Shown here piece after piece: positions 26,300 to 41,573 of a DNA stretch of 41,653 bases. Numbering within the stretch: position 1 is the stretch's first letter; every line of letters starts with the position of its first letter. The notes under the pieces were generated by a model. The model searched no databases. It was not told where the DNA came from and worked only from the letters and a program-made list of their open reading frames with translations. The translations under genes and the position numbers were made by a program. This stretch comes from an uncultured Lachnospiraceae bacterium. Its GTDB lineage: Bacteria > Bacillota > Clostridia > Lachnospirales > Lachnospiraceae. The DNA lies in NCBI GenBank assembly GCA_946407725.1, contig CAMJPM010000019.1, forward strand, positions 1-41,653. The letters are read 5' to 3'.

Positions 26300-27081
26300 C
26301 AGTAATGGGAATAGTGCTCCTTATTCTGGGAGCACTGCTTTTTGTAGCAAGCTTTATGGTAGGAAACAGAGAACAGGACAGCAAAAAATCCTCCCGGGCC
26401 ATGGGTCTGAAACTGGATCGGATGATCGATGAGCGGATCGAGCAGGTGAAGGGCAGGCTCACAGATGTAGCCAGTGTGGCGAGAGAGGAAGAGGAGGAAA
26501 GGGCCAAAAGGGAGCTGGACCGGCTTACCAATGATAAGATAATGGCCATTGACGATTATTCCAAGGTGGTTCTGGAGGAGATCGAAAGGAACCATAAGGA
26601 GGTCATGTTCCTCTATGACATGCTGGAAAACAAGACCACGGATATAAAGAACACCCTTAGAAAGGCGGATGCTGTCAAGAGAGAACAGGAGGATTCCATA
26701 AGGGAGAGTGCCCAGAGAGAAGAGGGACCGGCAACTGTGGAGAACACTGTACAGCCCATAGATGACGGTATGGATTCCATAAGGGAGCTCCTTTATGAGG
26801 ATAAGGATAAAAAATCCGTATCAGGTATGGACCGGCTGAAAAATGCGGTCAATGGTGCCCAAGGGGCGGATCCGGTTCCCACCATGGAAAACGATATTGA
26901 GAATGCAGGTGGATTAACTGAAGAGAAGACTGACACAGAGCTTTCCAGAAATGATCGGGTTCTTGAAATGAAAAGAGCCGGAATGGACAATGTGGACATT
27001 GCAAAAAGCCTGGATATGGGCGTGGGTGAAGTGAACCTGATAACCGATCTCTTCAGTAATGACAACGGGGAGGCAGATTAA
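26296..27081 (+). CDS. SwrB-like/DUF6115-like membrane protein
   Basis: One N-terminal membrane helix (MGIVLLILGALLFVASFMVG) is followed by a long charged coiled coil (about 30-145), an acidic linker, and a small helix-turn-helix-like C-terminus (RVLEMKRAGMDNVDIAKSLD, then GVGEVNLITDLFS). This plan and position just downstream of sigD match B. subtilis SwrB (YlxL), which promotes export-apparatus activation, and proteins labelled DUF6115; the match is from memory of the pattern. It overlaps the preceding gene by four bases. 261 residues. It is probably anchored in the membrane with the bulk in the cytoplasm. Confidence 0.75.
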   Translation: MTVMGIVLLILGALLFVASFMVGNREQDSKKSSRAMGLKLDRMIDERIEQVKGRLTDVASVAREEEEERAKRELDRLTNDKIMAIDDYSKVVLEEIERNHKEVMFLYDMLENKTTDIKNTLRKADAVKREQEDSIRESAQREEGPATVENTVQPIDDGMDSIRELLYEDKDKKSVSGMDRLKNAVNGAQGADPVPTMENDIENAGGLTEEKTDTELSRNDRVLEMKRAGMDNVDIAKSLDMGVGEVNLITDLFSNDNGEAD

Positions 27082-27082
27082 A

Positions 27083-28012
27083 GTGAATCTCAGGTCATAT
27101 TTAAGGGGAGCCGGAATCGGCCTTATAGTGGCAGCTTTAGTCCTTTCCTTTTCAGGAGGGGGAAAGAGCCATGCCATGACGGATAATGAAATAAGGGAGA
27201 GGGCAAAGGCTTTGGGCATGACTGACGGGAACGGGGTGCTGGCTGAGGCCTATATAGCAGTGGATGCTCCGGAGATTCCCTCAAAAGAAACTTTGTCTGA
27301 GGCTGCTAAAGAGGACGTGTCCGGTGAAACTGCCTTTGCGGAGGCAGCTACGGGGGAAGTCTCTACTGAAAAGGCTGACGCAAAAGCCGATGAAAAGACT
27401 GACGTAAAAGCCGATGAAAAGACTGACGTAAAAGCCGATGAAAAGGCTGACGCAAAAGCCGATGAAAAGACTGACGTAAAAGCCGATGAAAAGACTGACG
27501 TAAAAGCCGATGAAAAGGCTGACGCAAAAGCCGATGAAAAGACTGACGTAAAAGCCGATGAAAAGACTGACGTAAAAGCCGATGAAAAGGCTGAAGCTAA
27601 AGCCGATAAAAAGGCTGATGAAAAAACAGATAAAGAGACAATAAAAAGTGTTGACGAGATAATTGAAGAAAGCATTAAGGATGCGCCGAAAGCCGACATT
27701 ACGTCTGATCTGACAGGAGAGGATAAAAAGAAGTCGGAGCTTCTGGCGGATGCCGTGGAAACCGAGGCACAGAGCACTCCCGCAATAGCGGAGACTGCCT
27801 CCGGGTTTGCCGTAATACATGTGAACAGCGGGTTTTCTTCAATGGCGGTGGCAAAAGCTCTTGAAAGGTCGGGAGCCATAAGCAGTGCAGCAGCCTTTGA
27901 CCAGTATCTCTGTGCCAGAGGCTATGACAGAAAACTGGCCGCAGGAGATTTCAGGATACCCGCAGGCTCTTCTGATGAGGACATTGCCCTTATCCTTATG
28001 CGCAGGAAATAA
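27083..28012 (+). CDS. Membrane-anchored repeat protein with MltG-type LysM-like tail
   Basis: I choose the GTG at 27083 because GGGGAGG lies nine bases upstream; the ATG at 27059 lies within the previous gene and lacks a good site. The 309-residue protein has an N-terminal signal/anchor (MNLRSYLRGAGIGLIVAALV), a short domain with MTDNEIRERAKALGM, a highly charged Lys/Asp/Ala/Glu repeat region (about 98-185), and a C-terminal module IHVNSGFSSMAVAKALERSG plus FRIPAGSSDEDIALILMRRK. That module resembles the LysM-like N-terminal part of MltG endolytic transglycosylases, but the catalytic YceG domain is absent. It may bind cell wall outside the membrane near the flagellar machinery. Role unknown. 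Confidence 0.75.
   Translation: MNLRSYLRGAGIGLIVAALVLSFSGGGKSHAMTDNEIRERAKALGMTDGNGVLAEAYIAVDAPEIPSKETLSEAAKEDVSGETAFAEAATGEVSTEKADAKADEKTDVKADEKTDVKADEKADAKADEKTDVKADEKTDVKADEKADAKADEKTDVKADEKTDVKADEKAEAKADKKADEKTDKETIKSVDEIIEESIKDAPKADITSDLTGEDKKKSELLADAVETEAQSTPAIAETASGFAVIHVNSGFSSMAVAKALERSGAISSAAAFDQYLCARGYDRKLAAGDFRIPAGSSDEDIALILMRRK
27374..27589 (+). repeat. Three perfect 72-bp repeats (nine 24-bp units)
   Basis: Units start at 27374, 27446 and 27518 and are identical in DNA sequence. Each 72-bp unit consists of three 24-bp subunits encoding ADAKADEK, TDVKADEK, TDVKADEK. Degenerate copies follow to about 27640. Perfect identity implies recent expansion or ongoing homogenisation, and the length probably varies between strains. 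Confidence 0.97.
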
Positions 28013-28059: not shown

Positions 28060-28803
28060 ATGTTTGATCTGTTTACCAGAGATGACGACAGGACTCCCGG
28101 AAAGATACTGTTTCGGAAAGAGACGGAATACGGGACCTATGTCATAAAAAACGGGAATTACAAAGGTGATGAAGCCAGGCTCTATGAAGTTGACGGAGTA
28201 AGGGAATCCGCCACTTTCTTTGACGATAAAAAATACGATATGGTCTTTGACTATATCAAGGGCTTTTCACATATCACAAATGAAGCACCGGATGCCGGAA
28301 ATATGCTTATGTTCGGAGGAGCGGGATTTCAGTATCCAAAGCATGTGATCAGCCACTATTCCGATATCAGGATGGATGTGATCGAAGTCAATCCCCTGGC
28401 AGTGGATATTGCCAGGAGGTTTTTTTATCTTAATGATCTGGAAAAGGATTTTAAGGCCGAATCCTCGGGACGTCTAAGGATTTTTATTGAAGACGGTATG
28501 GACTACCTGAGAGAGAGCTCTGAAAAATACGACATTATAATCAATGATGCATATCATTCGGATATCCCGGATCAGGGTCTCGCATCGGTCAGGGGGCTTA
28601 GGCTCATTATGGAGCATATGGAGGAAAACGGTGTTTACGGTTTTAATCTCATAACCTCCATAGAGGGTGAGAATTCCATGCCCCTTAAAATGAATAACAG
28701 CATGTTAAACAGCATTTTTACCTCGGTCAAGTGCTTCCGGTGCACACCGGGGGCACAGGACAATGATCTTCAGAATGTGATCTTTGTATGCAGAATGGAT
28801 TAA
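28060..28803 (+). CDS. Spermidine-synthase-like protein (SpeE-type fold)
   Basis: The 247-residue protein has the layout of the spermidine synthase/class I SAM-fold group: an N-terminal beta region (about 10-60), the nucleotide-binding motif MLMFGGAGFQYPKHVI at about 83-98, the acidic strand end MDVIEVNPLAVDIARRFF, then IEDGMDYLRESSEKYDIIIN with DAYHSD. In SpeE the DAYHSD position is occupied by an aspartate-containing motif (DxxDP). Because many such bacterial proteins are methyltransferase-fold relatives without proven aminopropyl transfer, the exact reaction is open. A homospermidine synthase lies 7 kb downstream. AAGG lies before the ATG. It follows the flagellar block after 47 bases. Confidence 0.7.
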   Translation: MFDLFTRDDDRTPGKILFRKETEYGTYVIKNGNYKGDEARLYEVDGVRESATFFDDKKYDMVFDYIKGFSHITNEAPDAGNMLMFGGAGFQYPKHVISHYSDIRMDVIEVNPLAVDIARRFFYLNDLEKDFKAESSGRLRIFIEDGMDYLRESSEKYDIIINDAYHSDIPDQGLASVRGLRLIMEHMEENGVYGFNLITSIEGENSMPLKMNNSMLNSIFTSVKCFRCTPGAQDNDLQNVIFVCRMD

Positions 28804-32842: not shown

Positions 32843-35092
32843 TTAAGCCTGAATACAGATCTTATTGTTGTTAGATGACATAAGCACATTATAGCTGTGA
32901 CGGTCATCATTGATATCAGGCTTGTTCAGTTCGCCGTTATCTTTTATTATGATCTCAGGAGCTCCTGTAAATCTGAGGACACATTCACCAAGCACAGTAT
33001 TTTTACCGCTTTTTTCCTCTGTATTCTTAAATATTGAAAGGGCAATATCCTTTGCTTCCTCTATCTTTTTCTCTTCAATTCCCTGCTCTTTAAGGTTATC
33101 ATTTATCCAGCTTAATACCCGGTCATATTCTGCGGGAGTGTATTCAAAGGAATTCATTTTAACCTTTTCAAAATCCGGATCATCCAACATATATGGTATG
33201 CTTTCACTTCCCTTAATGATAAGGACGAATCCGAAGAAAATAGCCACTGCGGAAATCTGGGCAAGCAACATTCCCACGCCCATGGAAACTATGCCGCCAT
33301 TCAGGCAGAAGGTTACACAGAAGAGAATTGGAAAGAGGGCTGTACGGAATACAACCATCATACAGGACCACAGCGGTTTTTCCGTATCACCGTAGTAGTC
33401 CCCTAAGAATCCTCCTACAGCAGCCGCAATAAGACCTACTGAACAGTACCTTATACATTTGATCAGTTCTGCTCTTAAAGGGGAGTCTTCAATTCCGTAA
33501 AGCAGCAGTACTAAATTAGGCAGTAAAAGTAAAACAAGAGAAAAGGCTATGCCGACAAAAAGACAGACTGTCAAAGCTTCATCAAACAGAGTCTTTACAC
33601 CTTCACTGTTTTTTTCACCGTAATATGTGGCAAACAGATACTCTCCAGCCTCGGAAGGTCCTTTGATCATCTGGTATATTTCCAGCATGGCGCAAAGTAC
33701 AGTATTGGCTATCAGGTAACCGCTTCCCCAGAACAGAAGTATTGCTTTTGTAAAAGCCGCTGATACTGCTGACATACAAAGTCCTGAAACATTGGATTTA
33801 AGCGAATATTTTGCAAATCTGTAAAGATCCCGGAATGAAAACCACAGGCGTATCCTGTAGGTATTGCTTTTTTTAAGAAAGTGGATGGAAACAACCAGGA
33901 GATAAAAGATATAGCTAAACAGGGTACCAAGGGCAAGGCCTCCCATTCCCATTAAATTCGACAGAAAAATGGATCCGCCCACATTAACGAAAAAGGAGGC
34001 CAGATATCCGGCATAGGAGAGCATATCATCCCCTTCGGAAGAGACCATTTCATCTAAAAATGTGGCCAGTGCCATAAATGGGGGTACCAAAATATAAAAT
34101 TTATAATACTCTCTTGCAAATGTTCCGATCTGCCCTGAAGCCGAATAGTATCTTAAATACAGATCCTCCGTGAAATAGAAAAGAACAGTCTGCAAAACTC
34201 CCAGGAATATGTTTGCAAAAAGACCCAGCGTAAAGAGCCTTCCCGATTTTTCATAATCACCTTCTCCCTTGGCTATGGCACAGAGATTTGAACAGCCGGA
34301 GGTTATAAAAGTGGAAATAAATGTACTTAAGGAAACAAGGGGAAACATAATAGAAGTTGCCGCCAGTGCATCCATCCCCAGAACCTGTCCCGAAACAACG
34401 CCGTCAACCATTGTCAGGGCAACGGCAAAAACAAAACCGATGGAGTATTCAAGGGCACGGGAACGATACTCTCTGTTGATGAAGCTTGGCTTCAGTACGG
34501 ATCTGAAGGCATTGGCCAGATTGCCTTGTTCCTTAAATTCCCTTCTAATAACTGTACAAGCTTTAAGCAAAACCGTGCCTATAAGTGCTACGGAAATACA
34601 AGCCGAAAAAGCATTGTTGCCAAGGTCTGCCATCTCTTCAATAAAATCTTCCTTTGTCCAGTCTCCAATGATAAATCCGAAAAACAGAACGGCAGAAGGA
34701 GGCGTTGAAAGGTATAATACCGCAGTATTAACAAGAATCTGGATAAAATTGAAAACCACTATCTCCCTGGTACCGAATTTATCTTCATCCTTAATAAGGC
34801 TCCGGTATATCACACCTATCAGCGCCATCGAGGATGCCTCAAAGATCGCTACAAAGCTGTATTCCGGATTTCCGTATATCAGGAAGTCTGCAGTTATGCA
34901 GCTTACAAACGTCCCAAAGAACCCCACCAACGGACCGCACATAATCGATGCCACTACCTCGATGGATTCACCAAGCCATATGGAATCGTCATGGGTCAAT
35001 ATGACAATGAGATAATCAATGGAACAAGACAAAAAAGCAACTATAAAGATCTGTAAGATCCGGTTGATTATAGACCGTAAATTGATTTTCAT
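32843..35092 (-). CDS. Fusion: membrane-sensor/ECF-S-like + MATE flippase + ATPase-like tail
   Basis: I choose the ATG at 35092 (AGAGGG nine bases upstream); a frame extension to 35164 starts inside a repeat. The 749-residue protein has three parts. Residues about 1-190 are five or six membrane helices (GESIEVVASIMCGPLVGFFG, FVAIFEASSMALIGVIYRSL) resembling ECF substrate-binding or 5TM sensor modules. Residues about 200-640 are a MATE/MOP-type flippase of about 12 helices (VFAVALTMVDGVVSGQVLGM, MFPLVSLSTFISTFITSG). The last about 100 residues are soluble with GECVLRFTGAPEIIIKDNGE, like a degenerate RsbW/GHKL ATPase domain. It is convergent with the GGDEF gene (six bases apart) and downstream of the homospermidine synthase. 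Substrate unknown. Confidence 0.75.
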   Translation of the reverse strand: MKINLRSIINRILQIFIVAFLSCSIDYLIVILTHDDSIWLGESIEVVASIMCGPLVGFFGTFVSCITADFLIYGNPEYSFVAIFEASSMALIGVIYRSLIKDEDKFGTREIVVFNFIQILVNTAVLYLSTPPSAVLFFGFIIGDWTKEDFIEEMADLGNNAFSACISVALIGTVLLKACTVIRREFKEQGNLANAFRSVLKPSFINREYRSRALEYSIGFVFAVALTMVDGVVSGQVLGMDALAATSIMFPLVSLSTFISTFITSGCSNLCAIAKGEGDYEKSGRLFTLGLFANIFLGVLQTVLFYFTEDLYLRYYSASGQIGTFAREYYKFYILVPPFMALATFLDEMVSSEGDDMLSYAGYLASFFVNVGGSIFLSNLMGMGGLALGTLFSYIFYLLVVSIHFLKKSNTYRIRLWFSFRDLYRFAKYSLKSNVSGLCMSAVSAAFTKAILLFWGSGYLIANTVLCAMLEIYQMIKGPSEAGEYLFATYYGEKNSEGVKTLFDEALTVCLFVGIAFSLVLLLLPNLVLLLYGIEDSPLRAELIKCIRYCSVGLIAAAVGGFLGDYYGDTEKPLWSCMMVVFRTALFPILFCVTFCLNGGIVSMGVGMLLAQISAVAIFFGFVLIIKGSESIPYMLDDPDFEKVKMNSFEYTPAEYDRVLSWINDNLKEQGIEEKKIEEAKDIALSIFKNTEEKSGKNTVLGECVLRFTGAPEIIIKDNGELNKPDINDDRHSYNVLMSSNNNKICIQA

Positions 35093-35147
35093 ATCCATTT
35101 TCCCTCTAAGTATCATTCTGAAAGCCGGGCCATTTATAGTCCGCTTA

Positions 35148-35219
35148 CCCTCGCCGGGAGGCATCCCATATCAAAGATATGGGATAATCCCTCGCCGGGA
35201 GGCATCCCACATCAAAGAT
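35148..35219 (-). repeat. 41-bp tandem palindromic repeat between MATE and hss genes
   Basis: A 31-base block (CCCTCGCCGGGAGGCATCCC, then A-T/C-ATCAAAGAT) occurs at 35148-35178 and 35189-35219 with one mismatch. In the first copy ATCCCATATC/GATATGGGAT (35163-35172/35176-35185) is a perfect 10-bp hairpin around AAA; in the second only ACATC/GATGT remains. The minus-strand reading contains CATCTTTGATG, also present at 30839-30849. There is no clear terminator T-run. Confidence 0.85.
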
Positions 35220-35238
35220 GTTATCGTTCAAGCATTTA

Positions 35239-36549
35239 TCATAGCCGGGTGACCGTTACCGGCATGAATTTTGATACATAGGAAATGATCTCCTCCGGAT
35301 CAGTATATTCCGGAAACAGAATTCCTTCATTGGGATGATTGATGGCATACCGTATCGCGGCAAAAAGAGAGGCCGATACAATAAGGATCGAAGGTGAGTC
35401 TTCTATCTTCCCATCATAGGAAAGCGCCGTTTCAACATGGACCGGACTGAAATTCTTTCCCTCCACACATATTCCGACGGCTTCTCCGCCTGACAGCATC
35501 CTGTCTTTTGTGATCAGTTTCTGTTTTGAGTTTGTATCATGAAATACTGACCTCAGGGCAAGATCACAGGGACGGTATACAAATATAACTGTGGGTGCAT
35601 ACTCTATTTCGCCCTCTTCATTCCTTGAGGTATAATAATCATGTATGGAAAAAACCTCTTCATGGGCATCCACACAGCCTTCAAAGCCTTTGCCCAGAGA
35701 ATAGGCGGGTGTTCTGATATTTTTACCCATTTCATCAAGTACCAGGGTTCCGTCCGGCCGGCTGTAATATAATACCTGGTCTGCAGATAATCCGATCCTT
35801 TTCAACACCTCACTTAAAGGCGTTTCCGTTCCCACCTTTATGATGGCGTGATCGTTCATCTCCTCATTAAAGTCAGATACATTCCAGGTGGAGTAAACCG
35901 TATCGGGATCTTCTTCAATATCAGATTCGGTGTAGTCAAAATCCGATTCGATAAAGGAACTTACCTTAAGCTCCTTTGCGAGAAGAGACCATTTCCCTTC
36001 AGATATCAGTTTTTTCAGATAATCACGCCTGCAGGAAACAAACTCTCCTTCATCCATCTCCACAACATTCTGAAGGGCTGTCTTTGTGAAAACACTTACA
36101 AGGCCGGGATTCATGCCAAACTGGAGTACCCCGGTGGCTTTGCCTTTAGACTCCTTACAGAGCTCCTTATAAGAGAGAAAATGATCTCTGTACATTACAG
36201 GCTTTATTTCATAGAGATCATCAAATTGATCATCAGAAGCAGAAACAAAATGGATTCCCCTGCTTACACATTCTCCCGCTAAGATCAGGCTGTCATTTCT
36301 TTCGGCAAGGCACAGCAGGAAGTCCCCTTCATTAAGGAAATCAAAAATTCTCTTATAGTTGGTGCTGTTCATCTCGAAGTTTATGAAGTTTTCCTCTTTT
36401 CCGCCGGCTGAGACAAAGTAGTCAGACGCATCCTCACTGCAGTCCGTGATCATAATATCTTCCGGAGAAAACAGCTTCTCGCCCAAAAGAAGATTCAAAA
36501 GGGATCTTCCTACGCATCCAAGTCCTAAGATCATTATTTTTGCACTCAT
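35239..36549 (-). CDS. hss: Homospermidine synthase
   Basis: The start at 36549 is set by GGGAGGACAG on the minus strand; an upstream GTG at 36567 is rejected. The 436-residue protein has an N-terminal Rossmann motif (IMILGLGCVGRSLLNLLL), the family-like GVLQFGMNPGLVSVFTKTAL, AYSLGKGFEGCVDAHEEVFS with the following YAPTVIFVYRPCDLALRS, and the end SPSILIVSASLFAAIRYAIN, HPNEGILFPE. These match bacterial homospermidine synthase better than saccharopine dehydrogenase. The enzyme makes homospermidine from putrescine, using NAD. It has a strong promoter and is divergent from the NRPS gene. Confidence 0.85.
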   Translation of the reverse strand: MSAKIMILGLGCVGRSLLNLLLGEKLFSPEDIMITDCSEDASDYFVSAGGKEENFINFEMNSTNYKRIFDFLNEGDFLLCLAERNDSLILAGECVSRGIHFVSASDDQFDDLYEIKPVMYRDHFLSYKELCKESKGKATGVLQFGMNPGLVSVFTKTALQNVVEMDEGEFVSCRRDYLKKLISEGKWSLLAKELKVSSFIESDFDYTESDIEEDPDTVYSTWNVSDFNEEMNDHAIIKVGTETPLSEVLKRIGLSADQVLYYSRPDGTLVLDEMGKNIRTPAYSLGKGFEGCVDAHEEVFSIHDYYTSRNEEGEIEYAPTVIFVYRPCDLALRSVFHDTNSKQKLITKDRMLSGGEAVGICVEGKNFSPVHVETALSYDGKIEDSPSILIVSASLFAAIRYAINHPNEGILFPEYTDPEEIISYVSKFMPVTVTRL

Positions 36550-36591
36550 ATCTGTCCTCCCTAACACTGCCGCTTTAGCAGTTTTCTTAAA

Positions 36592-36620
36592 ATTTTATAT
36601 AGGGAAAAAATGTTTGTCAA
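36592..36620 (-). promoter_or_regulatory. Sigma-A promoter for homospermidine synthase
   Basis: Reading the minus strand: TTGACA (36620-36615), 17 bases, then TAAAAT (36597-36592). The -35 is perfect and the -10 matches five of six. The predicted start lies about 35-40 bases before the ATG. It probably also drives the downstream MATE fusion gene. Confidence 0.8.
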
Positions 36621-36707
36621 GTTGATGGCTTATCCGTTGCAATTCAGGTTCTGTAAGTCTGCTAAGATCGCAGCGTTTTTTCTTTACTACTATTATTGTC
36701 CTGATAG

Positions 36708-36716
36708 TGTTATAAT
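36708..36716 (+). promoter_or_regulatory. Extended -10 promoter for the NRPS gene
   Basis: TGTTATAAT is a perfect extended -10 element about 47 bases before the NRPS start codon. No good -35 hexamer is spaced at 17. It is divergent from the homospermidine synthase promoter, with the two -35/-10 regions about 90 bases apart, so one regulator could affect both. Confidence 0.6.
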
Positions 36717-36762
36717 CGTAAATGGCTCTCAACGATCATAAGGAAGTGAATGGTATATAGGG

Positions 36763-39714
36763 ATGAATACTGATTATTTTGATGCGCTTGATGTTTTCGA
36801 TGAATTTGACAAACTGAAAAAAAATTATCCGGATAAGGTGGTATTAAGTGAGGGATTGAAGGAAACGGATCTGACGGTTACAGAATTAGATGATATTTCA
36901 TCAAGGGTATACCGCTATCTGAAGGAGCAGAATATTGGGAAAGAGGATATGGTAAATATCTTTCTTCCCAGAGGCTGCGCCGTGATAGCCTGTCTTTTCG
37001 GGGTATGGAAGGCCGGTGCTGCCGCTGTCATACTTGAGGATGACTATCCGAAGGAAAGGGTCGATTTCATCAGAAAAGACAGTAACTGTATAATAGTGAT
37101 AGATAAAAGTGCCTGGGAGACCATCCTGAAAACAGACCCCCTTGACGGCCATGAACCCCTTGACCTGAAAGCTGCCGCTTTTGCCGTATACACCTCCGGA
37201 ACCACCGGAAATCCCAAGGGCATCCTTCATGAATACGGGAAGATTGCTGTCTGTTATTTTACAACCCACTGGAAGGGAGAACCGATATTTCAACGAAATG
37301 ATGTGTTTCCCGTATTTTTCCCCATGAATTTTGTGCCTGTGGTGATGATCGCATCCATAATGCTGATCAACGGTGTAAAGATTTTAGTTGTGCCGGATCA
37401 TATCCGGAAAGATCCGAATAAGCTTAAGAATTGTTTTTTGGAACAAAAGGTCAATAATGCCTATATACCTCCATCTCTGTTTCGTTCCATGAAGGATTAC
37501 GGACCATATTTAAAAAGCGTATATATCTGCTCAGAGCCTGCCAACGGGATCTGGCGGGATCCGGATGATATCCGTATACTTAACAGCTATGCCAGCTCCG
37601 AGACGGCAGCAACTGTTACGGCAGCGCTGCTCGACAAGCCATGTGAGATAGCGCCCATCGGAACTCCAACCACAAATTTGCAGGTCTTTATCCTGGACGA
37701 GGAAGGAAAAGAGGCCTCCGCCGGCCAGGCAGGGGAATTATGCTGTGAAATGCCATATACCAGAGGATATATAAATCTGCCCGAACAAAATGAGCGGACA
37801 TTTATAAATGGAATTTACCACACCGGAGATCTGGCAAGAAAGGGTTCGGACGGAAATTATTATCTCATTGGAAGGATCAAGGATACTGTTTCCATAAACG
37901 GCAAGCGGGTAGAGCCTGCAGAGGTTGAGGCAGCTATTAGAAAGGTCACAGGGATCGACCGGGTAGCGGTATGCAGTTTTTCCGGAGAAAACGGATCCTA
38001 TCTCTGTGCATATCATCTCGGAGATACAGACATAGATATCAACGGACTTAAAAAAATGCTGAAGGAGCATATTCCTTACTATATGATCCCTTCCTTCTTC
38101 ATAAAGCTGGACAGATTTCCGGAAAACGCCAACGGAAAGCTGGACAGAAGGGCTCTTCCCCGACCTTCTGCCGTGGATTACCTGACTGATTACATTTCCC
38201 CAACAAATGACATTGAAAAAGCGATCTGTGATTCCATGCAGAAGATCCTCTCCATTCCAAGGATAGGCATAAACGATGACTTTTTCCGGCTTGGAGGTGA
38301 TTCTCTGCTGCTGTTAAAGCTGATAGTGGATCTGAACTTCAAAGGGCTCAGTGTAGAGGATGTTATTCTCGGGAAAACACCCAAGGGAATAGCAGAGATA
38401 TATGGAAAAAAAGAAATAAATGGATCCGGTGATATTGATGAAGAGGATAGGAAATGCAGGGAAATACCATGCAGGATAACCAGAGATCAGCAGGAAATAT
38501 ATAATTATCAGCAGATCTCTCCCCAAAACTGCATGTATAATATTTACTCTTTAATGAGAGTGGAGGACATTGATGCTAATGAGCTTTCACTCGCCCTTAA
38601 AAAAGTGATGGAAAATCACCCGGCTCTTATGACAGTATTGGAAAAAGACGGGGACGGAAACGTCCTGCAGCGTTATGCTCCGGAGCTTATGAAGGAGATC
38701 GAAGTGGAAGAGGTCTCAGAGGAAGAGCTTATGGGGATGAAGGATGACCTGGTGAAGCCCTTTGAAATGCTGGGACACCCCCTTTTCAGATGCAGGGTCT
38801 TTTCAACCCCGGAGGCAAGCTACTTTTTTATGGATTTCCATCACATCATATATGACGGCTTTTCATCGACCATAATATCCAATGATATTACAAGGTCTCT
38901 TGCAGGAAAGGCATTGAAAAAGGATTACTATTACCGCTACATGTCAAAGCGGGTGGAAGAAGAGAAATCGGCAGAAGCAAAGAAATATTTTGAGTCCAAA
39001 TACGGGAATACAGACTGGACAAAGATACTTAAGCATGATTTTGAGCTTCCGGACAATCCTGCGGATATGGTTGAGCTTGAACTGAATATCAGTAAAAAGG
39101 AATATGATGCCTTAAAGGAAAATATGGGACTAGGGAAAAATATCCTGTATATAACCGCAGGCCTGTTTGCCCTTGCCTATGAAAGTTCTGACAGTGATGT
39201 GATGGTCTCATGGGTATATAACGGAAGGAACACCAGAGAGGATATGGACATAGTCGGAGTGCTGTTTCACGATCTTCCCGTTGCATTACATTTAAGGGAT
39301 GATCTTCTCATGGCAGATGCCGTTGAAGATATCAGGGAACAGATTAAAAAGGGTGTAGAGTTTTCAAAATATCCTTATCTCAGATATGAATATTCCAGGG
39401 TGATGGTAGATGATTCCGTATGTATCATGTATCAGGAAAACATTTATGATTTTAATATCACATCAAAATATAATACCAGGCTTATCGAGATAGAAGAGAA
39501 AGACAGGGCTGCCCAGAATTCATTAGATATAGAGGTTATTGATGATAAGGAGGATGGTTACCTTTTAATGGATTATTCAGCCAGGTTCTATAAAAAGGAT
39601 ACCATTGAAAAATACGCATATCTGGTGAGAAAGATCGCTAAGATGATTGCAGGATATCGGGACTTCGGTCACATGACGGTTAAGGAATTTCTGGGTAAGT
39701 TAGAAGGGGGATAA
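36763..39714 (+). CDS. Single-module NRPS: adenylation, carrier, condensation
   Basis: The 983 residues contain an adenylation domain (A3 YTSGTTGNPKG at about 141-151, A5 region SYASSETAA near 275, A7 YHTGDLA, A8 GRIKDTVSINGKRVEP, A10 ENANGKLDRRAL), a carrier domain with phosphopantetheine Ser near 514 (DDFFRLGGDSLLLLKL), and a condensation domain with HHIIYDG near 692. No thioesterase, reductase or second carrier follows. At the position usually holding the substrate-binding Asp (after A3, in FPMNFVPVV) an Asn appears by eye (about residue 189), as in aryl-acid activating domains. The start lacks a well-spaced ribosome binding site (AAGGAAG is about 16 bases upstream). Product unknown. Confidence 0.9.
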   Translation: MNTDYFDALDVFDEFDKLKKNYPDKVVLSEGLKETDLTVTELDDISSRVYRYLKEQNIGKEDMVNIFLPRGCAVIACLFGVWKAGAAAVILEDDYPKERVDFIRKDSNCIIVIDKSAWETILKTDPLDGHEPLDLKAAAFAVYTSGTTGNPKGILHEYGKIAVCYFTTHWKGEPIFQRNDVFPVFFPMNFVPVVMIASIMLINGVKILVVPDHIRKDPNKLKNCFLEQKVNNAYIPPSLFRSMKDYGPYLKSVYICSEPANGIWRDPDDIRILNSYASSETAATVTAALLDKPCEIAPIGTPTTNLQVFILDEEGKEASAGQAGELCCEMPYTRGYINLPEQNERTFINGIYHTGDLARKGSDGNYYLIGRIKDTVSINGKRVEPAEVEAAIRKVTGIDRVAVCSFSGENGSYLCAYHLGDTDIDINGLKKMLKEHIPYYMIPSFFIKLDRFPENANGKLDRRALPRPSAVDYLTDYISPTNDIEKAICDSMQKILSIPRIGINDDFFRLGGDSLLLLKLIVDLNFKGLSVEDVILGKTPKGIAEIYGKKEINGSGDIDEEDRKCREIPCRITRDQQEIYNYQQISPQNCMYNIYSLMRVEDIDANELSLALKKVMENHPALMTVLEKDGDGNVLQRYAPELMKEIEVEEVSEEELMGMKDDLVKPFEMLGHPLFRCRVFSTPEASYFFMDFHHIIYDGFSSTIISNDITRSLAGKALKKDYYYRYMSKRVEEEKSAEAKKYFESKYGNTDWTKILKHDFELPDNPADMVELELNISKKEYDALKENMGLGKNILYITAGLFALAYESSDSDVMVSWVYNGRNTREDMDIVGVLFHDLPVALHLRDDLLMADAVEDIREQIKKGVEFSKYPYLRYEYSRVMVDDSVCIMYQENIYDFNITSKYNTRLIEIEEKDRAAQNSLDIEVIDDKEDGYLLMDYSARFYKKDTIEKYAYLVRKIAKMIAGYRDFGHMTVKEFLGKLEGG

Positions 39715-39854: not shown

Positions 39855-41573
39855 ATGGCAAAAACAATAGCAATCGGGATCCAGGATTTTGAAAAGATCC
39901 GTAGAAACAGCTATTTTTATATTGATAAGACTGATTTTATCCGGGAATGGTGGGACGGTGGTGATGATATAACCCTCATTACCCGTCCAAGGCGTTTCGG
40001 AAAAACGCTGAACATGAGTATGGTAAACTGCTTTTTTTCCAATAAATATGAAAAAAGGGGCGACCTTTTTGACGGACTCTCCATTTGGAAGGATGAAAGA
40101 TACCATATGCTTCAGGGAACCTATCCACTGATCTTTTTATCATTTGCAGGGATAAAATATAAAGACTTTGAAACAACCCGGAAAGCCATCAACGGATTGA
40201 TCGCTGATCAGTACAGCATATTCAGGGACATCCTTAAATTTGACGGGATGGATAATAGTGACCTTGAGAAATTCAACTCCGTAAAGAGAGATATGGATGA
40301 CAGCCTTGCGGCAATGTCCATAAATTATCTCTGTTCCCTTCTGGAGCGCTGTTACGGGAGAAAGGCCATAGTACTCCTGGACGAATATGACACACCTATG
40401 CAGGAAGCGTGGCCCGGCGGCTTCTGGGATGAAACCGTGGCATATATCCGGTCGCTTTTCAATAATACCTTCAAAACCAACCCTCATCTTGAGCGTGGAC
40501 TTATGACAGGGATCACCAGAGTCAGCAAGGAATCCATCTTCTCTGATCTGAATAACCTTACTGTTGTCACTACGACATCAAATAAATATGCAACTGTATT
40601 TGGCTTCACGGAAAAAGAGGTCTTTGATGCCATGGAATCCCAGGGCTTTGACCCCGGTCTTAAACAGGAAGTGAAGCAATGGTATGACGGATTTACTTTC
40701 GGTAATGTTACCGATATCTATAACCCCTGGTCCATCACATCATATTTGGATTCTGGTAAGCTTGGCACCTATTGGGCCGACACCAGCGGAAACGGGCTTG
40801 TAAGCAGCATCCTCCGTACGGGGGATATTGAGATAAAGGAAACATTTGAGCAGCTGCTTAAGGGTGAAAGCATTGAAGCTGTGATCGATGAACAGATCGT
40901 GTTTTCCGATCTTAACTGGAATACTGCAGCAGTGTGGAGCCTTCTGCTGGCCTCCGGTTATCTGAAAATCCTGGATGTTGTTAATAATGCTGACGATCCC
41001 GAGTATCCCACCTATACGCTTTCCCTCACAAACTTTGAGGTAAGGCGCATGTTCTTTAAGCTTGTCAAACGGTGGTTTAATAAAGGACGTGACCTGCCGG
41101 ACTTCATCAAATGCATGTTCACAGGCAATGTAGAAGATATGAATAATTATATGGAGCGTATTACCCGGGATACTTTCAGCAGCTTTGACAGCGGAACCCG
41201 GCCTTCCGGTAAAGAACCGGAAAGATTTTATCACGGCTTTGTGCTGGGGCTTCTGGTAGACCAGATTTCGGGTTATATGGTAAAGTCCAACAGGGAAAGC
41301 GGCTTCGGACGGTATGATGTGGTGATGGAGCCAAAGGATGTGAAAGATCCGGCTGTCATTATGGAATTCAAGGTTTTCAATGAAAAGAAGGGTGAGAAAG
41401 ATCTTGAAGACACCGTGGCAAACGCCTTAAAACAGATTGAAGAAAAAAAGTACGACTCAGACCTCCTTGCCCGGGGAATACCGGTGGAAAGAATCTATAA
41501 ATACGGGTTTGGATTTAAGGGAAGCGAGTGCCTTATAGGAGCAGAAACCTCCGGCAGAAGTAAAACGTTGTGA
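39855..41573 (+). CDS. AAA-ATPase-like protein with PD-(D/E)XK nuclease-like tail (DUF1703 type)
   Basis: The 572-residue protein begins MAKTIAIGIQDFEKIRRNSY, the typical start of this family, then the unusual P-loop ITRPRRFGKTLNMSM (about 42-56), the Walker B strand IVLLDEYDTPMQ (about 171-182) and TGITRVSKESIFSDLNN. The C-terminus carries the nuclease-like motif GRYDVVMEP followed by AVIMEFKVFNEKKGEKD (about 484-512), with the Asp and the Glu-x-Lys spaced as in PD-(D/E)XK folds. Members occur in many copies in anaerobic Firmicutes and Bacteroidetes; their role is not established, although mobile-element or defence functions have been suggested. AAAGGAG precedes the ATG. Confidence 0.88.
   Translation: MAKTIAIGIQDFEKIRRNSYFYIDKTDFIREWWDGGDDITLITRPRRFGKTLNMSMVNCFFSNKYEKRGDLFDGLSIWKDERYHMLQGTYPLIFLSFAGIKYKDFETTRKAINGLIADQYSIFRDILKFDGMDNSDLEKFNSVKRDMDDSLAAMSINYLCSLLERCYGRKAIVLLDEYDTPMQEAWPGGFWDETVAYIRSLFNNTFKTNPHLERGLMTGITRVSKESIFSDLNNLTVVTTTSNKYATVFGFTEKEVFDAMESQGFDPGLKQEVKQWYDGFTFGNVTDIYNPWSITSYLDSGKLGTYWADTSGNGLVSSILRTGDIEIKETFEQLLKGESIEAVIDEQIVFSDLNWNTAAVWSLLLASGYLKILDVVNNADDPEYPTYTLSLTNFEVRRMFFKLVKRWFNKGRDLPDFIKCMFTGNVEDMNNYMERITRDTFSSFDSGTRPSGKEPERFYHGFVLGLLVDQISGYMVKSNRESGFGRYDVVMEPKDVKDPAVIMEFKVFNEKKGEKDLEDTVANALKQIEEKKYDSDLLARGIPVERIYKYGFGFKGSECLIGAETSGRSKTL

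Follow-up and report, generated by a model that had tools for sequence, protein, structure and literature searches.

What might a polyamine-making enzyme, a nonribosomal peptide synthetase (NRPS) and a transporter produce together, when their genes are found side by side in an uncultured Lachnospiraceae bacterium? The question is raised by contig CAMJPM010000019.1 (contig C19 of the 3.28-Mb source genome, G000), all of which was analysed, the window being the entire contig of 41,653 nucleotides. Two of the genes lie on the minus strand with 74 bp between them: one encodes a MATE fusion protein of 773 aa, a candidate exporter (32843..35164), and the other a homospermidine-synthase-like enzyme (HSS) of 442 aa (35239..36567), whose true start may be an alternative ATG 18 bases further in. 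The third gene starts 195 bp away on the opposite (plus) strand and encodes an NRPS of 983 aa with a single adenylation-thiolation-condensation (A-T-C) module and no thioesterase (36763..39714). These genes had been pointed out in a sequence-only reading of the window, and all three are real and correctly placed.

A promoter-like site (TTGACA-17-TAAAAT, 11/12 matches) precedes the HSS gene on the minus strand (36592..36620), in a scanned stretch that holds two such sites against 1.3 expected by chance. The HSS gene of a second genome, G668, is likewise preceded by the same kind of box, and another can be seen by eye in the intergenic stretch ahead of a MATE remnant on contig C2 of genome G080.

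Other genes of the window deserve mention in their own right. A lone spermidine-synthase-like protein of 247 aa (28060-28803, plus strand) scores above the cut-off for Pfam Spermine_synth and for the NCBIfam fused MFS/spermidine synthase, the latter match beginning at profile position 255; it may be an extra polyamine gene, situated about 4-8 kb away from the cluster. Upstream of it, a protein is built with repeated KADEKTDVKADEK-type units (27059-28012, plus strand), and directly after the NRPS lies a predicted AAA-ATPase with a PD-(D/E)XK nuclease domain (39855-41573, plus strand).

The identity of the HSS is borne out by its similarity to solved structures and by its catalytic residues. All 14 PDB matches obtained with phmmer are homospermidine synthases, the best of them (2.9e-26) covering residues 9-435 of 442. 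The numbering and active site are those of the Blastochloris enzyme, with the active-site residues of Blastochloris viridis HSS taken from PMC8489232 and PMC4725965; bacterial HSS structures include PDB 6y87 and 2ph5. In this alignment, the window protein keeps five catalytic residues, N162, W229 and the triad E237-H296-E298. Three other positions are changed in all 18 Clostridia HSS proteins, the window's included (Glu210 to Asp, Tyr323 to Phe and Asp361 to Glu), the negative charge at position 210 being retained, and the entrance pair D94/E117 is replaced by R and D in the window enzyme. This combination of E210D, Y323F and D361E with a conserved charge at 210 points to an HSS-type enzyme for which another diamine is possible, so that HSS-type chemistry with room for a shifted substrate is likely from the residues. 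G668 is alone among the 18 proteins in having Lys at position 162; an N162D change inactivates the Blastochloris enzyme, according to the mutant data given in PMC8489232. As for the putrescine source, both decarboxylase families are matched in the source genome, and the surroundings examined show no polyamine pathway.

The NRPS comprises an adenylation domain (residues 19-465; 36817..38157, plus strand), a thiolation domain with Ser514 in a GGDS motif (residues 487-534; 38221..38364, plus strand; PP-binding 1.3e-6) and a C-terminal condensation domain (residues 574-962; 38482..39648, plus strand; Condensation 2.7e-33). The domain search thus upholds the A-T-C order without a thioesterase. The condensation motif, HHIIYDG at residues 693-699, is intact, and the closest PDB relatives of the domain are ordinary NRPS condensation domains. 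The condensation domain ends the chain, neither a carrier nor a thioesterase following it in the protein.

The sequence-only reading had also placed an Asn at the position of Asp235 of the adenylation domain and had taken it as a sign of an acid without an alpha-amine. That position is in fact occupied by Val191 (37333-37335), and the Asn sits two residues upstream. A first adenylation code with Asn at 235 was rejected when anchors from multi-module NRPSs moved the register by two residues; it was discarded for this reason, and no full specificity code is given. The expectation itself fares better than the residue on which it was founded. Within the same bacterial family, 23 A-T-C-type proteins were compared with 34 adenylation domains of multi-module NRPSs, the latter being motif-pattern matches from all but two (L015 and L031) of 20 loci. 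Asp is present at position 235 in 28/28 internal domains of multi-module NRPSs, in 0/6 of their N-terminal domains and in 0/23 A-T-C-type proteins (18 Val, 3 Ile, 1 Thr, 1 Asn), a set that includes the 513-aa protein of G137, in which no condensation domain is seen, the first piece of a broken gene on contig C23 of G080, and the L087 protein, which is cut by a contig end and is near-identical to that of G677. Since Asp235 is lost in all the A-T-C-type proteins and kept in internal domains, an acid without an alpha-amine remains the likely substrate, the loss being consistent with this choice and not specific to it.

The protein encoded at 32843-35164 (minus strand) is a three-part candidate exporter, with ECF-S-like, MATE and RsbW/SpoIIAB-like portions. 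Its MATE portion is borne out by a match to MatE (PF01554; 2e-18) in two stretches. The N-terminal ECF S-component-like domain (residues 23-225; 34490..35098, minus strand) reaches 24.3 bits with Pfam ECF-ribofla_trS, under the cut-off of 26.7, and its AlphaFold2 model (pLDDT 78) retrieves ECF S components at Foldseek ranks 1-14 (E 0.02-0.56). The C-terminal RsbW/SpoIIAB-like domain (residues 655-773; 32846..33202, minus strand) is assigned from its predicted fold in the window protein, its counterpart in genome G642 resting on alignment, and inspection by eye revealed no glycine-rich ATP-lid motif in it.

At loci L093, L097, L098 and L101, further MATE-type proteins (about 580 aa) adjoin proteins that, judged by eye, resemble SpoIIE-type phosphatases. 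Furthermore, amidohydrolase-like genes of similar sequence are found near the MATE fusion in G668 (L077 16403-18067), G080 (L053 10340-11995) and G670 (L118 4103-5896), the call being based on Pfam for L077 and on inspection by eye for L053 and L118.

Taken at about even chances, the locus encodes a compact acyl-polyamine pathway, in which an acid is loaded on the NRPS, transferred by the condensation domain to the polyamine made by HSS and exported by the MATE protein. Known HSS enzymes use putrescine as the diamine. To judge from its residues, the window enzyme would join two diamines into homospermidine or a close analogue. The adenylation domain would activate an acid that has no alpha-amine (a fatty acid, perhaps, or a keto acid) and load it on the thiolation domain. 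As neither a carrier nor a thioesterase follows it, the condensation domain at the C-terminus is expected to hand the acyl group to a free amine, which would be the HSS product, yielding an N-acyl-polyamine. The MATE fusion would then export it, and partners of the STAS type may dock to its RsbW-like end, a role suggested by the STAS-condensation fusion found beside MATE and HSS genes in G642. If this pathway is right, gut-type Lachnospiraceae should make metabolites of the N-acyl-homospermidine type. Such metabolites would be cationic equivalents of the fatty acid amides for which PMC13142362 reports an action on host receptors. Synthesis could, moreover, be tied to export in the way suggested by the STAS-condensation and RsbW-MATE fusions.

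The recurrence of the three genes in relatives provides a first test of this association. In G668, the trio is rearranged, with the order HSS (minus), NRPS (plus, 69% identical) and MATE fusion (plus). In G677, which like G668 belongs to the genus of the source genome, no more than 9 kb contain HSS, the MATE fusion and an NRPS (33% identity), together with pieces that resemble, by eye, a broken ABC transporter. G080 represents a further genus, and on its contig C23 HSS is followed by a broken A-T-C NRPS of 37% identity. Its contig C2 (L053 284-4662) carries a window-type NRPS (85%) beside the last part of the MATE protein (86%), with no HSS in that cluster and the first MATE part missing. The window and G668 are set apart from G677 and G080 in the HSS tree and, in the same way, in the condensation-domain tree. 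This match is broken by G642, whose HSS (its start missing at a contig edge in the alignment and tree) is close to the window's, while its condensation domain falls outside the window's group. Between the window and G668, all three genes are under purifying selection, with omega of 0.136 for HSS, 0.141 for the MATE fusion and 0.175 for the NRPS, the last with a dS of 1.25, near saturation.

The chance of finding HSS at most 10 kb from an NRPS is about 1.4% per genome, an estimate that covers 8 of the 18 HSS loci (G625, L050, L051 and seven ATP-grasp loci were left out) and in which some NRPS counts are lower bounds. The resulting naive probability is 2.5e-6 for at least 4 of 8 genomes; it ignores relatedness among the genomes and is therefore too small. 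For two or more of the 8 genomes the naive value is 0.005.

The sequence-only reading proposed checking whether the three genes occur together across Lachnospiraceae. They do so as a trio in G668 and G677, and as the HSS-NRPS pair in G080, but most A-T-C NRPSs are not accompanied by HSS, and their family is not bound to it overall: with the source genome counted, a standalone-size NRPS relative (at least 800 matched residues, open frame 900-1060 aa long) is present in 20/48 genus genomes versus 6/48 for HSS. The homologue searches scored two or three candidates per genome, so some copy numbers are lower bounds. Full-length relatives of the MATE fusion are found in 9/48 genus genomes, and four of these (G633, G655, G663 and G670) gave no HSS hit and have no NRPS within 10-18 kb around the gene. 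In G135, a G677-type NRPS stands beside MATE-like pieces recognized by eye, with no HSS hit. Nor did the condensation-domain alignment, with six HSS-linked rows, show acidic columns specific to the linked domains. Seven columns are acidic in 6/6 linked rows and in 56-94% of unlinked rows; one linked row (L087, from G675) comes from a contig that ends at the place where HSS is expected, and gave no HSS hit.

The wide occurrence of the NRPS relatives compared with HSS, together with the missing polyamine-specific signature in the condensation domain, speaks for an acyl-amide synthase that uses another small amine and gives a product like a fatty acid amide (FAA), HSS and MATE being neighbours with separate roles. 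The Coprococcus FAA system described in parts of PMC13142362, which uses aminovaleric acid, adds to this case. It is countered by the four genomes in which HSS adjoins an A-T-C NRPS, these NRPSs falling into two separate clades, and by the matching HSS and NRPS subclades, and we consider this alternative rather improbable. Closer to the acyl-polyamine pathway, and less probable again, is an HSS-like enzyme with changed specificity, whose product, made for example from cadaverine or other diamines, would be the acceptor in an otherwise identical scheme. The three substitutions shared by the 18 Clostridia proteins and the altered entrance pair of the window enzyme favour such a shift, against which stand the five conserved catalytic residues and the negative charge kept at position 210.

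Condensation domains with an HHxxxDG motif usually use carrier-bound acceptors. The window's motif is of this type, and contig C8 of the source genome encodes a 2442-aa NRPS near another MATE-type protein; both would suit a split assembly line, in which the acyl group is passed in trans to the carrier of another NRPS to make a lipopeptide. Yet that large NRPS lies on a different contig and has, by eye, a condensation-like stretch of its own at its start, and in G668 and G677 the companions of the A-T-C gene are HSS and MATE, with no other NRPS. A split line thus appears very unlikely. Least credible of all is that the genes are chance or relic neighbours, once separate and partly decaying, with no joint pathway: although the G080 copies are broken or incomplete and a catalytic residue is changed in the G668 HSS, the trio has been rearranged and still kept together in G668 and G677, and omega stays at 0.14-0.18.

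The acyl-polyamine pathway can also be viewed against the places where HSS occurs in other Clostridia. HSS relatives were found in 5/299 family, 3/392 order, 6/48 genus and 6/391 class genomes, in overlapping samples that include the source genome, giving a total of 18 distinct loci with two Butyrivibrio contigs among them. Five of these loci adjoin a condensation-domain enzyme, three a leader-Hint protein, seven an ATP-grasp protein and three an exporter only, so a candidate amide- or thioester-forming partner is present at 15/18.

The HSS locus of G642 carries a MATE gene and a STAS-condensation fusion (STAS 6.5e-14, Condensation 1.4e-36). The STAS-condensation fusion of L079 (3053-4618, minus strand) stands beside MATE and carboxyltransferase genes. 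On contig C8 of the source genome (L094 574-11371), the 2442-aa NRPS is followed by a carboxyltransferase-like gene and the MATE-type protein, an arrangement partly like the G642 set by eye.

At G643, L050 and L051, HSS is found with genes for one or two leader proteins with a terminal Hint domain and for an NHLM-type exporter (leader-Hint proteins at L050 7649-8575, L051 9006-9887 and L076 7290-9183). The three exporter proteins of L050, the locus scanned with NCBIfam, pass the cut-offs, other exporters being judged by eye. Pfam covered three of the four Hint proteins, with Hint_2 above the cut-off in L050 and below it in L051 and in the scanned G643 protein, and one of the seven ATP-grasp proteins, that of G070; the rest were assigned by eye. 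In all four Hint proteins, VAGG is followed after 23-27 residues by the Hint Cys. Splicing inteins end in His-Asn, and this ending is not seen in the four proteins. In the genus sample, a Hint protein is present in 1/48 genomes, only in G643 and at its HSS locus; L050 and L051 were located through HSS and thus do not test the link. A row that runs from an ATP-grasp-type protein (GSP_synth 6.1e-16 in G070) through a protein of about 220 aa to HSS is found in G070, G125, G915, G981, G760, G816 and G878. These three-gene rows, in which the protein of about 220 aa is conserved, correspond to loci L065, L066 and L132-L136. Finally, HSS follows a large MFS fusion in G293 and G625 (MFS_1 by Pfam for G293) and adjoins a MATE-like protein at a contig end in G650. 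Among the matches listed from the open-access literature, by their titles and abstract openings, no paper deals with HSS together with an NRPS or with an NHLP precursor that carries a Hint domain; PMC2887384 contains none of the terms intein, Hint, hedgehog, polyamine and saccharopine.

These neighbourhoods raise a wider question, mainly through the Hint and ATP-grasp loci: could HSS be an amine supplier to specialised amide-forming enzymes? A joint reading across Clostridia, which we put forward tentatively and regard as somewhat unlikely, is a general polyamine-capping strategy in which HSS supplies unrelated carboxyl-activating machines and the products are exported. The activated carboxyl would come from A-T-C NRPSs or from a GSP_synth-type ATP-grasp ligase. 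Leader-Hint precursors may contribute a peptide thioester yielded by the Hint domain, and a STAS-fused condensation domain might dock to the MATE protein through its RsbW-like end. The HSS-made polyamine would be the common nucleophile, and lipid- or peptide-polyamine conjugates would be exported. If true, this strategy would include a new kind of RiPP with a C-terminal polyamine.

How the locus compares with known systems can be considered component by component. The window enzyme resembles the bacterial HSS of Blastochloris viridis and Pseudomonas aeruginosa, as described in parts of PMC8489232 and PMC4725965, in its full-length similarity and in N162, W229, E237, H296 and E298; it differs in E210D, Y323F and D361E, in the loss of D94/E117 and in its likely biosynthetic cluster context. 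The RsbV/RsbW and SpoIIAA/SpoIIAB pairs are paralleled both by the RsbW/SpoIIAB fold at the C-terminus of the MATE protein and by the STAS-condensation fusion of G642, whereas the window's RsbW-like domain, known here from its predicted fold, is fused to a transporter.

In vibriobactin synthesis, the free-standing condensation domain VibH transfers a carrier-bound acyl group to a free polyamine. The glidonin domain C13 condenses putrescine onto a peptide, according to the relevant passages of PMC10587159, and is thus a further case of condensation-domain release onto a free polyamine. In both, a free polyamine takes over the acyl or peptidyl group that the carrier bears, and the same role is proposed for the window's condensation domain. 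However, VibH stands free and C13 closes a long peptide line as C-A*-T-TE, whereas the window domain terminates a one-module A-T-C protein; since C13 is followed by A*-T-TE, the terminal domain of the window fits VibH better.

The FAA synthases of gut Clostridia, OaaA/OaaACP/OaaC, use free amines (PMC13142362; Chang et al. 2021 as cited there). They share with the window's predicted functions an acid-activating adenylation domain, a carrier, a free-amine condensation domain and an origin in gut Clostridia. In contrast to these systems, whose A, ACP and C components are separate proteins, the window has one fused 983-aa A-T-C chain, and this NRPS has a polyamine-forming enzyme and the MATE fusion protein as neighbours. 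The DHxxxDS motif is frequent in the FAA condensation domains, while the window domain has HHIIYDG. A fused A-T-C chain with a canonical condensation motif differs from the FAA proteins described in PMC13142362.
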